Shown here piece after piece: positions 39,550 to 51,761 of a DNA stretch of 64,000 nt (positions within the stretch are counted from its first letter, which is position 1; every line of letters begins with the position of its first letter). The translations under genes and the position numbers were made by a program. Source of the stretch: Longibacter salinarum (GTDB taxonomy: Bacteria > Bacteroidota > Rhodothermia > Rhodothermales > Salinibacteraceae); contig NZ_PDEQ01000003.1 in the NCBI RefSeq assembly GCF_002554795.1, forward strand, positions 372,001 through 436,000, read 5' to 3'. The notes under the pieces were generated by a model. That model was not told where the DNA came from and did not search any database. It worked only from the letters and a program-made list of their open reading frames with translations.

Positions 39550-40380
39550 TTACGCGTGCTCCTGCTGCTTCGGAGGGAACGGATAGGTGCGCACCCGGCC
39601 AAGCTCGCGCTGTAGGCTGCCAGCCTCCGCAAGTACAACGGAAATGTTGTCGGTCGAGCCGGAATAATAGGCAAGGGAAACGAGAGATTCGGCCGCGGTC
39701 TGAAGGTCGGGTGTGCCGAGCATGTATGACTTAAACAGTTGCTCTTGCTCCTTCAATTTGTCGACGATTAAGCCGTCCGAACAGAGAAGGAACCCGTCGT
39801 GACCATCCAGGCGATAGGCTGGGTTTTCTTTCGGAAAAAAGTCCGGCTCGTCACCACTCCCGTCGAGCGTTTTGTTGATAATGTGACCGTACTGCGCGAC
39901 GAACTGCGGATCCAGGTTTTCGTTGCCGGCCTTGTTCTTAAACTCCTGGAGGTACGAGTGATCTTCAGTAATCTGCTCGATGAGCTCGCCGTTCAGGTAG
40001 TAAACGCGCGAGTCTCCGAGATTGCCGACGACAAAGTGATCTTGAAAGCCAAGAACACAGGTGAGCGTCGTGCCCATACCTTCGAGAGAGGGATCCTCCT
40101 CGGTAACGTCGCGGATGGAGGCCTGTGCTCGCTCATACATTTCCGCGAGAATGTCCTTCAGGTCTGCAACGTCGACCTCGTAATCAAATCGCTCTGTTAA
40201 AAACTGCTCAGCCGTGGAGAGAGCCGTCTTGCTCGCGATCTGTCCGCCTGCAACGCCCCCCATTCCGTCGGCGACGGCAAAGAAGAACGCGTTCGGGCCT
40301 GGGTAACAATGTAAAACGTCATCCTGATTTACATCCCGGCGTCCGGGGAACGTCGTTCCGTGCGCAGAAATTGGGAGCAT
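39550..40380 (-). CDS. PP2C-family protein Ser/Thr phosphatase
   Basis: A 276-residue metal-dependent phosphatase. The motifs appear in order: GRRDVNQDDVL, AVADGMGGVAGG, GMGTTLTCVLG, GNLGDSRVYYL, LCSDGL, and GSTDNISVVLAE, which include the Asp metal ligands. It has no membrane segment. Together with the kinase and FHA protein it completes a reversible phosphorylation cassette, all on the minus strand. The start at 40380 is an ATG giving LPISAHGTTFPGRRDVNQD. Confidence 0.95.
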   Translation of the reverse strand: MLPISAHGTTFPGRRDVNQDDVLHCYPGPNAFFFAVADGMGGVAGGQIASKTALSTAEQFLTERFDYEVDVADLKDILAEMYERAQASIRDVTEEDPSLEGMGTTLTCVLGFQDHFVVGNLGDSRVYYLNGELIEQITEDHSYLQEFKNKAGNENLDPQFVAQYGHIINKTLDGSGDEPDFFPKENPAYRLDGHDGFLLCSDGLIVDKLKEQEQLFKSYMLGTPDLQTAAESLVSLAYYSGSTDNISVVLAEAGSLQRELGRVRTYPFPPKQQEHA

Positions 40381-45455: not shown

Positions 45456-46865
45456 GTGCATCCAGATATCGATCCTGCGCGACCACTTCCAGCCGCGGCG
45501 TGTTCATCGTGCAATGAGCTCGTGCCCGTGGAGCGCAGGCGCCGGATCCCACGTCTGGGGTGGGCACTCGTGGTGGCGTTCATCCTGATCACCGTACCGG
45601 TGTCGGACGTTGCAGCGCACGACGAGCCCGGGGCTCGGGCTGGCCCGTCCCCCACCGTTTCCTATGCGTTCGTGGATGCCGACACGTCGGACGTCGATCC
45701 TCACCCTAACGCGGTTCCGTATCGTACCAACCGAAGCATCTGGGTGCATTTGCTCTCGGCGCCATCGTACGCGCTTTACGGGGTCACGCGCCCGCTGGGA
45801 TGGGGCGTGAAGTACCTCGAACGTGAGTTCCCGACCCTGTTCGAGCCGAGACTGCCCGTTCGGGGGGCGCTACCAATCGTTGAACTGGGAGGACCGGTTG
45901 GCATTCAGGGTGGTGTCGCCCTTTTCGACCAGAACCTGTGGGGCGTTGGACATGACGCGCGGGTCTCTGCGCTTTACGGCTCAAGAAGCCGCTACGAGGT
46001 GCAGCTAGACTATGGACTCGGGTCAGCGCTCGGTTCGCGCACGGACCTGTCGTTCAGCGCAGACTTTTTTACACATCCGGAGCGCCGCTACTTTCTGCGT
46101 GGAAATCGCGCGGATAAGAAGGATGAGACGCGCTACTTCACCCGGCAGTTTGCCTCTCGCATCACGCTGGGACTGCAGCCGATCAACAAACTTTCGGGCG
46201 ACATTCAGTTCGCATACACACGCTCCCAGAACAAAGCTGCCGACGGAGAGCTTGGTGCGAGACTTCCGACGACGCTTCCCGGACTCGATCGAATCACGAA
46301 CCTCCTGTCGGCCCGGACCTCGTGGAGTGTCGACTTCACCGGGCGGACGGAAGCGCGCACCGTCCGCGGGACACGGTTTACGGTGGAGGGTGAGCTAACG
46401 AATGATCTGAATGGTAGCACCTTTCGCTACGTCCGATATGCAGCCGAGGTGCAGCAATACGTTCCACTGGTCGTGCTACCCCCTACGCGTCGCCTCGCGC
46501 TGAGACTTCGTCTCGACAAGGTCGAACCGGTTCGCGGGGGAGCAGCCGTGCCGTTTTTTCGATTACCGGGAATTGGAGGCCAGTCCACCGTTCGGAGCCT
46601 CGTCTTCGACCGGTTCGTGGAGGAGGGCGCGATCGTGGCCAACGCAGAATACCACTATCCCATCTGGAATCGGATGGATGCGGTGGTCTTCGTGGATGCT
46701 GGACAGGTGTTCAACGAGTTCGAGATGATCGCGCTCGATCGATTTCACGTCGGGTACGGAGCAGGCGTTCGCGTTCTTCGGGGGGGCGACCTTGCGTTTC
46801 GTCTCGACGTAGCCACGGGAGAGGAAGGCGTACGCGCTATTCTCACCGTTAATAAGACCTTTTAA
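45456..46865 (+). CDS. BamA/TamA-like outer-membrane barrel protein
   Basis: Up to 469 residues from a GTG at 45456. A GTG at 45528 would give a classic signal peptide with an RRRR n-region followed by LGWALVVAFILITVPVSDVA. The mature protein lacks POTRA repeats and is mostly alternating beta strands. The C-terminal VVFVDAGQVFNEFEMIALDR, HVGYGAGVRVLRGGDLAFRL and final NKTF match the D15/Omp85 barrel family, and PFFRLPGIGGQSTVRSL resembles its strand region. It probably resides in the outer membrane. A kinase-like lipoprotein gene follows by 62 bases. Confidence 0.8.
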   Translation: MHPDIDPARPLPAAACSSCNELVPVERRRRIPRLGWALVVAFILITVPVSDVAAHDEPGARAGPSPTVSYAFVDADTSDVDPHPNAVPYRTNRSIWVHLLSAPSYALYGVTRPLGWGVKYLEREFPTLFEPRLPVRGALPIVELGGPVGIQGGVALFDQNLWGVGHDARVSALYGSRSRYEVQLDYGLGSALGSRTDLSFSADFFTHPERRYFLRGNRADKKDETRYFTRQFASRITLGLQPINKLSGDIQFAYTRSQNKAADGELGARLPTTLPGLDRITNLLSARTSWSVDFTGRTEARTVRGTRFTVEGELTNDLNGSTFRYVRYAAEVQQYVPLVVLPPTRRLALRLRLDKVEPVRGGAAVPFFRLPGIGGQSTVRSLVFDRFVEEGAIVANAEYHYPIWNRMDAVVFVDAGQVFNEFEMIALDRFHVGYGAGVRVLRGGDLAFRLDVATGEEGVRAILTVNKTF

Positions 46866-46927
46866 AAGAGGAGAAGATGGGTCTCCTCCCCGTATTCTAC
46901 CGATCGCACATCGCGTTTATCTGTCGA

Positions 46928-48727
46928 ATGAAGCTTTTGTCTCGAGCCAAACTGGCGTTTCTCCTCATTGCGTTTGCCGTTTTTGCGAGCGGATGTAGTT
47001 CGTCGCGTCCGTACACGCTCGGCGCCCTAAAAACGGAAGATCCGGACCGCGAGCCGATTCCGGAGCCGCGCGAGATCGAGCAAAACTTCTACTGGGATCG
47101 CGTCGATCTGACGGTTTTCCATCAGCTGAAGAAGCCGCTGAACCTGGCGTGGACAGGTCGGAAAGCCGGCGCACTCGTCGGGATTGGCGATGGGGAGACG
47201 CAAGCCGATAACGTGAATGCGTTCGATGAGCCGCCGCGGTCGAGCTGGTGGACGCCTCGGCACTATTATCGTCCGATGACAGCCGAGGAATTGGCGATCG
47301 GGCCGAACACAGATGGTCGTACGGAGGCTGGACCCGATACGAGTGGGACATGGACGATCTGGAGGGGAAAGTCGGTCGGGGCGGCATCCGGCTTTTTTAT
47401 CCAGGACGCGCGCGGGGTGCGCTACCTGCTCAAGTTTGACAAGCCGTCCTATCCCGAGCTTGCTTCGTCAGCGGAGGTCATTTCGACGAAAATCTTGCAT
47501 GCGGCCGGATATCATGTCCCAGAAAATACAATTGCGCATGTGCATCCGGAGCAGATCGAGATTGGCGAAGGGGCGACCGTGCAGGACGGAAACGATCGTC
47601 GGCCCATGCGCCCCGACGACGTCACCTCCGTGCTTGAGGGACAGCCACGCCGCGATGACGGCAAAGTACGTGTTATGGCGAGCCGGTTCGTGGACGGCCA
47701 CGTGCTGGGGCCGTGGAATTTTCGCGGTCGGCGCGACGACGATCCCAACGACCGCGTGCGCCATCAGGACCGCCGCGAACTGCGGGGGCTTCGCGTGATC
47801 AGTGCCTGGCTAAATGACACGGATCGCCGTGCTGCCAACACGCTCGCCGTGTACACCGACGAGCGATACATCAAGCACTACGTGCAGGATATGAGTTCGA
47901 CGCTCGGGGCGAACACGGGCTCGCCGCACCGACCGATCCACGGACAGGCGTACATGATCGATCATCGGCTCATTCCGCAGGCGCTCGTCAGTTTCGGGTT
48001 GTTTCGGTTCCCCTGGTGGGAATACGATCCTTCGGCCGCGTTTCCGTCCGTTGGATACTGGCGCTCCGATGTTTTTCGCCCGGACGAGTGGGTACCCACG
48101 TATCCGAATCCCGCCTTCGAAAAGCTGACACGCCGGGACGCGTTCTGGGGCTCGAAAATCGTCACCGCGTTCTCCGATGACGACCTTGCCGCCATCGTGC
48201 AAACGGCCGAGATGTCGAATCCGGAAGCGGAGGCGTACCTCCTGCGTGTTCTCCAGGAGCGGCGCGACAAGACCGGGCGGTACTGGTTTCGCCGCATTGC
48301 GCCCCTCGATCGATTCCGCGTGTCGCAAGACTCCGGCTCTGCACTCCGGCTAGCATTCGACGACCTGGCCGTCGAGCGGGGAATGGAGATGGCCGATGCC
48401 GTGGCCTACCGGTACACGATCCGGCATGACGGGACGAAGCTCGATCATGGGATGGTCAGCGAGCGATCGGTTGGACTCCGAGTTGGGGAGAAAACGATCA
48501 ATGAATGGCTGGATGAGCAAAACCTCACCAATCCAGATCATCGCGTCGTAAGGGTCGATCTTGCACCAGAATACCGGTCAGGGGACGACGTGCTGCGTCC
48601 GTCGGAAGTGCAAGTGTTCGTCTACCTTCCTGCCACGCCAACGCGTCCACTCGATGTCGCATCCGTGTTCAGCCGCGACGATATTGATCCGCACGCGCCC
48701 CGGGTTGTGGGGCTGCGTCGAAAGTAA
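46928..48727 (+). CDS. Envelope lipoprotein with HipA/Fam20-like kinase motifs
   Basis: About 599 residues from the ATG at 46928. The lipoprotein signal (LAFLLIAFAVFASGC) has its Cys at 23. A kinase-like core follows: Gly-rich SGFFIQDARGVRYLLKFDKP (Lys near 169), an acidic alpha-C-like helix (YPELASSAEVIST), a hinge-like ASRFVDGHVLG, the D-x4-N catalytic motif in AWLNDTDRRAAN (Asp 299, Asn 304), and the metal Asp in HYVQDMSSTLGAN (321). This matches HipA-type and secreted Fam20-like kinase folds. The assignment is by motif only. It is tied to the barrel gene upstream, so periplasmic or surface phosphorylation is a possible role. Confidence 0.65.
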   Translation: MKLLSRAKLAFLLIAFAVFASGCSSSRPYTLGALKTEDPDREPIPEPREIEQNFYWDRVDLTVFHQLKKPLNLAWTGRKAGALVGIGDGETQADNVNAFDEPPRSSWWTPRHYYRPMTAEELAIGPNTDGRTEAGPDTSGTWTIWRGKSVGAASGFFIQDARGVRYLLKFDKPSYPELASSAEVISTKILHAAGYHVPENTIAHVHPEQIEIGEGATVQDGNDRRPMRPDDVTSVLEGQPRRDDGKVRVMASRFVDGHVLGPWNFRGRRDDDPNDRVRHQDRRELRGLRVISAWLNDTDRRAANTLAVYTDERYIKHYVQDMSSTLGANTGSPHRPIHGQAYMIDHRLIPQALVSFGLFRFPWWEYDPSAAFPSVGYWRSDVFRPDEWVPTYPNPAFEKLTRRDAFWGSKIVTAFSDDDLAAIVQTAEMSNPEAEAYLLRVLQERRDKTGRYWFRRIAPLDRFRVSQDSGSALRLAFDDLAVERGMEMADAVAYRYTIRHDGTKLDHGMVSERSVGLRVGEKTINEWLDEQNLTNPDHRVVRVDLAPEYRSGDDVLRPSEVQVFVYLPATPTRPLDVASVFSRDDIDPHAPRVVGLRRK

Positions 48728-48845: not shown

Positions 48846-51761
48846 ATGGCTCGTCTCCTCGCCTCACTTCTCGGTTTGCAAAAAGGGGAGCGGAAAATGG
48901 CGCTGTTAATGGCAGCGTATCATTTTCTGTTGCTCGTCATCCTCTATTTGCTCAAGCCCGTGCGGGACAGTCTGTTTCTCGCGGACCGAGGGCCGGCGGA
49001 GCTTCCGTACGTTTTTATTTTGACGACCGTCATGGTCGTCCCAGTCGTCATTTTGCACACGCGGCTTGGTCAATCGATGCGGGTTGGGCGACTGATTGAC
49101 GGGGTAACGCTGTTTCTGGCAGCGAATCTTGTCGGTCTCTACTGGTTGGTCGCGCTCGAGACGGCCTGGGCGCCGTACATTCTGTATGCCTGGGTCAGCA
49201 TTTTCAGTTTACTGGTTACCTCGCAGTTCTGGCTTCTGGCCAACGCCATCTTCGGGGCCTCGCAGGCGAAACGAGTTTTTACCGTACTCAGCGCGGGCGC
49301 GATTCTGGGAGCTATTGTCGGTGGGGAAGCGACGGGGCTGCTGGTCCGTACGGCCGGCATCGATAGTCACGCACTGCTGTTCATTGCGGCTGCTATGCTC
49401 GTTGGCTCCGTCGCTATGAGCCGATGGATTCGACAGCAGCACCAGGCGCGCGGGGGAGCTGTACAGGTCGCGGGATCAAATGAGGAGGTTCCGTTCTCTG
49501 GCGATGAGGCATCGGCCGACGCGCACGCCGACGACACAGATGCGTCTCCGGTTGAGGATGAGGATCCGACTGAGACAGCCGAGAAGCATGAGGCCTCGTC
49601 GCGCCTGTCCGCCCAAATGTCCGGCAGTTGGAAGGCGTGGTCGATCATCCGCAGTTCGCGCCACCTCCAGTTGATCGTCGGAGTGATCGCTGTCATGGTG
49701 ATCACGTCGACCGTGGTGGATTTTCAGTTCAAAACCGTCGCAGCGCAGGCGTTCGCGTCTGAAGATGCACTAACCTCGTTCATGGGACGATTCTATGGGC
49801 GCGTGAGTCTCGTAGCTCTCGTCGTACAGTTCTTCATCGCTCCGCGATTTATTCGCATTCTCGGCATTGGGGGAGCTCTGTCTATTCTGCCGATTGCCCT
49901 CGCGGGTGGAACCGTGGCGATGATCCTCGTTCCGGGGCTGGTCGCTGGTGTGCTGATTCGAGGGGCGGACCAGACGCTCAAGCACTCCATCGACAAGACG
50001 GGGCGAGAGCTTTTATTTGTGCCGGTGTCACTGGAGAAGAAGAAGCAGGTGAAGGTGTTTGTCGACCTGTTTGTGGATCAGGGTGCACAGGGGGTGGCGG
50101 GTGCACTACTCCTTCTCCTTACGACCGTTCTAAGCTTCTCCGTGTCTGAGCTCGGATGGGTCGTCGGGTTCCTTCTTGCGGGTTGGGGCGTGCTGGCATA
50201 CCTCGCCCGCCGCACGTACATCCACGAGTTTCGTAAACGTCTCCGTGCGCAGGAGGACACAGAGTCTTCTGATGAGGCGACGCCCGTATCGGAGACACTC
50301 GATGAATTGCTCGAGTCTCTCTGCAGCCGCAACGAACGCGAGACGCTCGCTGCGCTGGACCAGCTGGAGCATGGCGACGAAACCGTTCCGATTGACGCGC
50401 TCGTGTGCCTGCTCGATCACTATTCGCCGACGGTGCGGGAGCAGGCCATTCGCGTCTTACGGGTGCGTACGATCGAGGGGCTGGGGTCGGAGGTTGTGGA
50501 GGCGCTGACGGACCCCAACCCAGACGTTCAGTTGGAGGCGGCGCGGTACCTGTACTGTCAGAGCGGTGAGCGTATTGACCGGTTGCAGGAGGCGCTGGCG
50601 CACGATGACGTACGTATCCGCGCGGCGGCCGTTGGGCTGATTGCGGAAGAGGGCGGGCCGGACGCGTATCGTCTCATTACCGAGGCGACGCTCCGGCAGC
50701 TCCTCGATGTCCCAGGAGAGGCCGGCGAGGACGCCCGTACTCATGTGGCTCGCATCCTTGGTGTTCTCAATCGGTCGTATCGCATTGAAATGTTGCACTC
50801 CCTTCTGTTCGATGATTCCGATCAGGTGGTTGAGGCCGCGATTCGTGCCGCTGGACGCAGCGAAGAGAGAGCCTTCGTGTATCCGCTGTTGGTGCGTTTG
50901 AAAGAAGAACGTTTTGAAGGCGTCGCCCGTGAGGCGTTGTCTCGTTTTGGTGAGCGGGTGCTGGGTACACTCTACGATGTGATGGTTGACGACCGCGTCA
51001 ATTTAGATGTTCGCGTACAGGTCCCGCGCATTTTGACCGAGCTCCATAACAACCTGGCGGTGACGGTTCTTGTCACCGCTCTCCGTGATGTACCGATTCC
51101 AGTTCAACACGCCATTGTCCGTGCCCTCAGTCGGCTTCACGCGTCCGGGTACGACTCGTTCGCGTTCGACGACATCGCGGAGGCGATTCGTAGCGAAATA
51201 CGGTACTATGCAGCCCTCGGACAGGTCGTCCACATGATGCTTCGGACGGACCGCGACGCGGTGGGAGATGTCGAACTGTCGGATGTCCGAGGGGCGCGGG
51301 AGCGGAGCTTAGAGCGTATCTTCCGTCTCCTTGGACTGCAGTACGATCAGCGGGACGTGTACGACGCGTATCTCGGGCTTACGAGTGACGACCGGACGCT
51401 CCGCTCAAGTGCCATCGAGTTCGTCGATAACCTGGTGGACTACTCCACGAGCCGAATCTTGCTGCCGTTGCTCGACGATCCGGAGGGAAGGAAGGCATTG
51501 GAATATGGCCAACGATTTTTCGACCTGAACCTTCGGACTCCCTCCGATGCACGCGCCTTTCTTCAAGAGGTCGACAATCCGAGACTAGAGGGGTCTGAGT
51601 CGTCGGACCGCGGGGACATGTCTCCACCCGATCGAGGCGTGAGTCAGAGCGTCCAAGGACGTACATCCGGGTTTTTCGGGCAGGATGAGTCAACTGACGG
51701 CGTCGATGGTATCCCGCAGCGGCGCGCTCCGACGTCCGAGGGTATGTCGGATGCTTCGTGA
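48846..51761 (+). CDS. Npt-type nucleotide-transporter-like membrane protein with HEAT repeats
   Basis: A 971-residue fusion. The N-terminal ~450 residues carry about ten to twelve hydrophobic segments of the MFS/ATP:ADP-antiporter-like family (AAYHFLLLVILYLLKPVRDS, SLFLADRG, SLEKKKQVKVFVDLFVDQGA). The C-terminal ~450 residues are helical repeats of HEAT type (DALVCLLDHYSPTVREQAIR; EALTDPNPDVQLEAARYLYC; RIRAAAVGLIAEEG; RDVPIPVQHAIVRALSRL) ending in a charged tail. The substrate cannot be told. The soluble HEAT part should face the cytoplasm. The gene follows the kinase-like lipoprotein by 118 bases. Confidence 0.78.
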   Translation: MARLLASLLGLQKGERKMALLMAAYHFLLLVILYLLKPVRDSLFLADRGPAELPYVFILTTVMVVPVVILHTRLGQSMRVGRLIDGVTLFLAANLVGLYWLVALETAWAPYILYAWVSIFSLLVTSQFWLLANAIFGASQAKRVFTVLSAGAILGAIVGGEATGLLVRTAGIDSHALLFIAAAMLVGSVAMSRWIRQQHQARGGAVQVAGSNEEVPFSGDEASADAHADDTDASPVEDEDPTETAEKHEASSRLSAQMSGSWKAWSIIRSSRHLQLIVGVIAVMVITSTVVDFQFKTVAAQAFASEDALTSFMGRFYGRVSLVALVVQFFIAPRFIRILGIGGALSILPIALAGGTVAMILVPGLVAGVLIRGADQTLKHSIDKTGRELLFVPVSLEKKKQVKVFVDLFVDQGAQGVAGALLLLLTTVLSFSVSELGWVVGFLLAGWGVLAYLARRTYIHEFRKRLRAQEDTESSDEATPVSETLDELLESLCSRNERETLAALDQLEHGDETVPIDALVCLLDHYSPTVREQAIRVLRVRTIEGLGSEVVEALTDPNPDVQLEAARYLYCQSGERIDRLQEALAHDDVRIRAAAVGLIAEEGGPDAYRLITEATLRQLLDVPGEAGEDARTHVARILGVLNRSYRIEMLHSLLFDDSDQVVEAAIRAAGRSEERAFVYPLLVRLKEERFEGVAREALSRFGERVLGTLYDVMVDDRVNLDVRVQVPRILTELHNNLAVTVLVTALRDVPIPVQHAIVRALSRLHASGYDSFAFDDIAEAIRSEIRYYAALGQVVHMMLRTDRDAVGDVELSDVRGARERSLERIFRLLGLQYDQRDVYDAYLGLTSDDRTLRSSAIEFVDNLVDYSTSRILLPLLDDPEGRKALEYGQRFFDLNLRTPSDARAFLQEVDNPRLEGSESSDRGDMSPPDRGVSQSVQGRTSGFFGQDESTDGVDGIPQRRAPTSEGMSDAS

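Follow-up and report, generated by a model that had tools for sequence, protein, structure and literature searches.

A putative extracytoplasmic HipA-like phosphorylation unit encoded beside an Omp85 barrel and a nucleotide exchanger homolog

Our results suggest that three neighboring genes of the halophile Longibacter salinarum encode a phosphorylation unit that works outside the cytoplasm: a HipA-like kinase lipoprotein, docked on an Omp85-type barrel and provided with ATP by a nucleotide exchanger. We put the probability of this reading at roughly 60%; kinase activity, direction of transport, substrate and side of the membrane are all inferred. What we observe directly is the gene order, the lipobox, a HipA_2-type domain with all catalytic residues, the linkage to a transporter of the TLC family, and a pseudokinase clade without the transporter. 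To our knowledge, the periplasm is generally taken to hold no ATP, and for this reason kinase signaling in that compartment is unexpected. A preliminary description of the locus had suggested an extracytoplasmic phosphorylation or nucleotidylation system. Extracytoplasmic modification gains support from homology, conservation and gene linkage, with the activity itself remaining an inference. Nucleotidylation by the kinase-like lipoprotein is neither supported nor excluded.

Gene layout

The window, i.e., the whole stretch of 64,000 nucleotides that was analyzed, contains the following features. Residue numbers throughout count from the start at 46928 that was used in the preliminary description.

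45456..46865, + strand: Omp85-superfamily outer-membrane barrel, 469 aa, no POTRA domain recognized (PF01103; homolog directly upstream at all loci examined)
46877..48727, + strand: HipA-like kinase lipoprotein gene, open reading frame of 616 aa, or 599 aa from 46928 (open frame, ribosome-binding site, HipA_2 profile match)
46928..46996, + strand: signal peptide core and lipobox, the last residue being the lipidated Cys23 (sequence; lipobox retained in the 26-member lipoprotein clade)
47378..47548, + strand: kinase N-lobe with the G151 loop, K169 (47432-47434), E183 (47474-47476), G194 and P198 (column-wise alignment with HipA_2 and HipA)
47696..47698, + strand: G257 (invariant in intact members and HipA_2; gone in all pseudokinase members)
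47822..47890, + strand: catalytic loop D299-R-x3-N304 and metal-type D321 (HipA_2 has D-R-T-x2-N in 29/29 and D in 29/29)
48308..48724, + strand: C-terminal strand-rich domain past the kinase-like region, residues about 461-599 (modeled confidently; no HipA_2 match there)
48846..51761, + strand: homolog of NTT/TLC-type nucleotide exchangers, 971 aa, with C-terminal HEAT repeats (PF03219; PF13646, E = 7.3e-16; hydrophobic segments; linkage)

The barrel, lipoprotein and exchanger genes look like an operon, because they share a strand and are separated by short gaps only. In a consensus scan, sites resembling promoters and terminators turned up about as often as expected by chance. The predicted translation start of the kinase-like gene is probably 46877 rather than 46928. 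An in-frame ATG lies there, 11 bp past the stop of the barrel gene, and we favor it because a good ribosome-binding site, aaaagaggagaagATG, precedes it. About 5 kb from the cassette, on the minus strand at 39550-40380, the window also encodes a PP2C-type protein phosphatase without an evident signal peptide; no link to the cassette has been shown.

Relationship to HipA_2 kinases

The preliminary description had named a lipobox Cys, Lys169, Asp299 with Asn304, and Asp321. All are present in the frame 46928-48727, with Cys23 in the lipobox FASG^CSSS and the two residues of the motif spaced as Asp299-x4-Asn304. We have little doubt that the lipoprotein is exported.

Our claim that it has a kinase-like fold rests on a profile-profile comparison with HipA_2 (PF20613) and on the N-lobe. 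For this comparison the query profile was built from 31 intact relatives and the HipA_2 profile from 29 HipA_2 proteins of the phylum. The two align along the full length of the kinase domain (hhalign 86%, E = 4.8e-6, 236 columns); a true relationship, that of HipA_2 to HipA, yields 89% and E = 2.4e-6. Among the controls, unrelated profiles gave E values of at least 0.12, the reversed family 0.76 and the degenerate clade described below 0.021. G151, K169, E183, P198, G257, D299, R300, N304 and D321 lie on invariant or nearly invariant columns of the 29 HipA_2 sequences, and the counterpart of G257 is Gly in 29 of 29. When 468 proteins were ranked with a HipA_2 HMM, family members took positions 1 to 10. 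The same was true for an independent HipA HMM made from seven proteins, whose catalytic Lys falls on K169 in every member with a readable mapping. The kinase-like fold proposed earlier is thus very likely correct: the comparison sets the whole domain on HipA_2-type kinases and the named residues on catalytic columns. AlphaFold was uninformative here. Given only the window protein and one relative as input, it reached a mean pLDDT of 38 and 33, and the sole confidently modeled region was residues 461-570 (about 70-90 in most blocks).

Pfam and NCBIfam scans report no family above cut-off for the window lipoprotein. In Pfam scans of the family, HipA_2 and HipA_C recur as kinase matches below threshold. 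The gathering score of HipA_2, 27 bits, is not met (best among the members tabulated 14.1 bits, E = 0.028; no match for the window protein), and neither is that of HipA_C, 30.5 bits (family best 13.0 bits). As far as profiles can tell, the lipoprotein is distantly related to HipA_2; it does not reach the family cut-off and is therefore not filed as a member. Searches of solved structures with phmmer and hmmsearch returned nothing for the lipoprotein, the reverse search of the family HMM against HipA was not significant, and a HMM of the HipA C-lobe by itself failed to single out the family. A PI3/PI4-kinase profile produced a single partial match in 240 genomes. Weak, isolated matches to MazE-like, pucC and LsoB_effector in the Pfam and NCBIfam scans were rejected.

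HipA, Fam20C and CotH had all been named for comparison, the latter two being exported kinase-like proteins as well. Only the kinship with HipA found support, through the HipA_2/HipA match. CotH (PF08757) gave no signal, with an hhalign E value of 0.71 and no enrichment of family members in the CotH HMM ranking. For Fam20C (PF06702) there was no match in scans of 22 members at E values up to 10, a result that rests on the Pfam scan only.

The similarity to HipA_2 includes seven corresponding catalytic or structural residues (G, K, E, G, D, N and D). In Bacteroidota, HipA_2 proteins consist of one domain of about 265 aa, and the ones examined start without a signal peptide, whereas the window protein is a lipoprotein and has additional domains at its N and C termini. 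With the HipA toxin kinases (PF07804) it shares the Lys and Glu in register with K169 and E183, the D-x4-N motif and the later Asp; unlike them it is exported and scores below the HipA_C cut-off. No HipB-type DNA-binding antitoxin partner was recognized adjacent to the gene, whose neighbors encode the barrel and the exchanger. We found no precedent for an exported HipA-type kinase in the open-access literature.

Conservation and loss of the active site

A member of the family is present in 23 of 41 near relatives; across the class the figure is 41 of 245 genomes. We also sampled 296 genomes spread over the phylum, and every match fell within this class; sampling was confined to this phylum and did not cover others. 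Collections of viral contigs and plasmids contained no relative.

We aligned 43 full-length genes, 31 intact and 12 degenerate. The tree contains a lipoprotein clade of 26 members (support 100/100), which keeps the lipobox, and a second clade of secreted, non-lipidated proteins made up of five intact genes and one degenerate subclade of 12 (100/100). K169, D299 and N304 are identical in all 31 intact relatives, a set drawn from several families within the class; D321 is found in 30, the remaining one carrying Glu. Conservation at this level is more than chance would produce. E183 and G257, which the preliminary description did not name, belong to the same conserved set. The residues it did name are kept in intact members, and K169, D299 and N304 are jointly lost only in one paralogous clade.

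We regard this loss as the main functional evidence in our analysis. The intact genes share 77 nearly invariant columns, and 58 of these are retained in at least 11 of the 12 degenerate members. Missing from all 12 are K169, E183, G257, D299, N304 and Y314 (always Phe), a set that, judged from the alignment, is nearly the kinase active site. The clade reads as a pseudokinase branch. The replacements vary: K169 became V, L, W or R, and D299 became S, K, A, G or M. This variety shows that constraint was relaxed after the loss.

A second family member in the window's own genome (L022:5281-7005; G000:C1 about 99924-101384) is secreted, has no lipobox and has lost the catalytic residues. It too lies behind an Omp85 barrel. 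A kinase/pseudokinase pair is thereby present in one organism. In genome G357 the kinase-like gene is spread over two frames (L100:5151-6855), through either a frameshift or a sequencing error, and the gene of the phosphatase described below adjoins it.

Linkage to a nucleotide exchanger

The strongest clue to function is a gene that the preliminary description had overlooked. The product of 48846-51761 passes the TLC/NTT test (PF03219, 35.5 bits vs. a gathering score of 21) and has about 10 hydrophobic segments in its first 435 residues; sister NTT genes at other loci reach 80.9 and 87.3 bits. Either a gene of this 971-aa type or its 450-aa sister adjoins 27 of the 31 intact genes; neither adjoins any gene of the 12-member degenerate clade. 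Counted over whole genomes, 28 of the 31 that have an intact gene also have an NTT gene, vs. none of the six whose family members are all degenerate, and a TLC HMM search concurs. One of the exceptions among the intact genes has its NTT on another contig (G333). None was detected for the other three (G349, G014 and G029), of which G014 and G029 are genomes that are 56% and 77% complete. Six genomes have both kinds of gene; there the NTT gene neighbors the intact copy, and no NTT gene was seen next to the degenerate one (whose contig in G001 is only 4 kb long). Part of family f18 has the NTT gene 5' of the barrel; elsewhere it is 3' of the kinase gene. Because it stays linked despite this difference in gene order, the linkage has outlived rearrangement. 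About 14 genomes of the class have NTT homologs without having this kinase.

In the tree the degenerate members form a monophyletic group. Given this one origin, a single event may account for the loss of both the catalytic residues and the NTT. Two intact, non-lipidated members without a linked NTT (L094 and L095) branch just below the pseudokinase clade. They are possible intermediates, in which the NTT was lost ahead of the active site; both genomes are incomplete.

From the linkage we are inclined to infer that the NTT-type transporter supplies the ATP. Like the NTT-HEAT transporters described by Major et al. 2017 (PMC5381601), it consists of a TLC domain followed by HEAT repeats. A link between NTT-HEAT proteins and an exported kinase was not found in the open-access literature. 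Export of ATP is only inferred, because NTT-HEAT transporters, widespread in bacteria, have no known function and the NTTs that have been characterized mostly import ATP and other nucleotides (PMC5381601). One could therefore argue for nucleotide scavenging: the barrel would admit extracellular nucleotides, the lipoprotein would bind or process them in its kinase-like pocket, and the NTT would import them. Free nucleotides are present in hypersaline habitats, and phosphatases adjoin some of the loci. Scavenging leaves unexplained, however, why the full phosphotransfer set (K, E, D, N and D) is kept and is lost jointly when the NTT is absent, and why the barrel is retained even without the NTT. 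We consider it improbable.

Alternatively, the HipA-like fold might carry a nucleotidyltransferase, or a mere ATP-binding scaffold, and no phosphotransferase at all. SelO is a precedent for AMPylation, and many folds that bind ATP have turned into scaffolds, apparently the fate of the degenerate sister clade. The catalytic loop is nevertheless of the HipA_2 kinase type and an ATP/ADP exchanger suits a reaction that returns ADP, so that very little speaks to us for this possibility. In our preferred reading the lipoprotein phosphorylates its target, and it is probably an active phosphotransferase, an inference made without biochemical data.

The Omp85 barrel and the side of the membrane

A barrel beside the lipoprotein had been claimed before, and it is indeed there: a gene of the Omp85 superfamily (PF01103, E = 3.5e-18) lies immediately upstream on the same strand and stops at 46865. 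It passes the Pfam gathering score of 24 bits with 66.6 bits. The pairing is conserved as well. An Omp85-type gene lies directly upstream at every locus examined, the degenerate ones included (at one locus, L029, the contig ends within it). The protein has no recognized POTRA domain, and barrels without POTRA domains resemble the Omp85 "noNterm" type of Heinz and Lithgow (PMC4104836). The same survey has an Omp85 Metallo (PF00149) group. POTRA-less barrels of this kind are found fused to certain relatives of the phosphatase partner. We found no description of a kinase partner for any Omp85 group in the open-access literature.

The barrel may do more than hold the lipoprotein. It could transfer it to the cell surface, as in PlpD with its patatin domain (PMC4104836), so that the enzyme would act outside the cell. 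That the barrel gene precedes every family member directly, pseudokinases too, would agree with this. Three observations make surface display doubtful. First, the ATP of an inner-membrane exchanger would reach the periplasm and not the outside. Second, a surface-export signal in Bacteroidota would carry acidic residues after the lipidated Cys, and no acidic residues follow Cys23. Third, the fused relatives of Omp85 and phosphatase hold the enzyme on the N-terminal side of the barrel, which is normally periplasmic.

Phosphatases and the possible substrate

In several genomes of family f18 a lipoprotein with a calcineurin-like phosphoesterase domain is encoded directly after the kinase gene or after the NTT genes. 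Elsewhere in the order, other families have homologs of about 1250-1340 aa that end in a C-terminal Omp85 barrel related to the one at 45456-46865. In L157:2689-6411, L158:2371-6393 and L159:1899-5639 the N-terminal metallophosphatase homolog and the C-terminal barrel form one chain. Two of the fused proteins start with a lipobox followed by Cys-x-Ser-Lys/Arg-Pro, similar to that of the kinase family. The window's own genome has no homolog of the phosphatase at E = 1e-10.

A PAP2-type phosphatase homolog lies near the cassette at L107, L110, L111 and L113 (four genomes of one family). Its presence there could be taken to mean that the envelope kinase acts on a lipid or glycan (LPS, a lipoprotein glycan or exopolysaccharide) and not on a protein, and kinases of this superfamily also modify lipids and sugars. 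We think such a substrate unlikely, without wishing to dismiss it, since the adjacency is limited to four loci and the HipA relatives of known function are Ser/Thr protein kinases (PMC9948734, PMC9325769). Neither a lipid or glycan substrate nor a location at the cell surface excludes the explanation that we consider best.

Discussion

How might the unit work? The lipoprotein signal would export the HipA-type kinase, whose most likely anchoring site is the inner face of the outer membrane, beside a dedicated POTRA-less Omp85 barrel on which it could dock. In the inner membrane, the NTT-type transporter would swap cytosolic ATP for ADP. Such an exchange would give the kinase its co-substrate in an otherwise ATP-less compartment without a net loss of adenylate. 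The kinase would then move phosphate onto a target in the envelope or at the surface, which might be a protein or glycan that the barrel presents. In some relatives the calcineurin-type phosphatase lipoprotein could reverse the mark. For the complete chain, from a dedicated periplasmic ATP supply through the exchanger, via an outer-membrane-anchored HipA-like kinase, to envelope targets at the barrel, with reversal by the phosphatase in some lineages and loss of the exchanger in the dead sister clade, we see even odds.

If our reading is correct, an exported HipA-like kinase together with an ATP/ADP exchanger makes periplasmic phosphorylation directly testable. It would also give a role to the widespread NTT-HEAT transporters of free-living bacteria, which are listed as uncharacterized (PMC5381601), and POTRA-less Omp85 barrels would serve to dock enzymes of the envelope. 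In one genus the cassette is naturally present in some strains and absent from closely related ones, which offers ready comparisons. One genome (G117, locus L119) carries two intact barrel-kinase-NTT cassettes about 9 kb apart.
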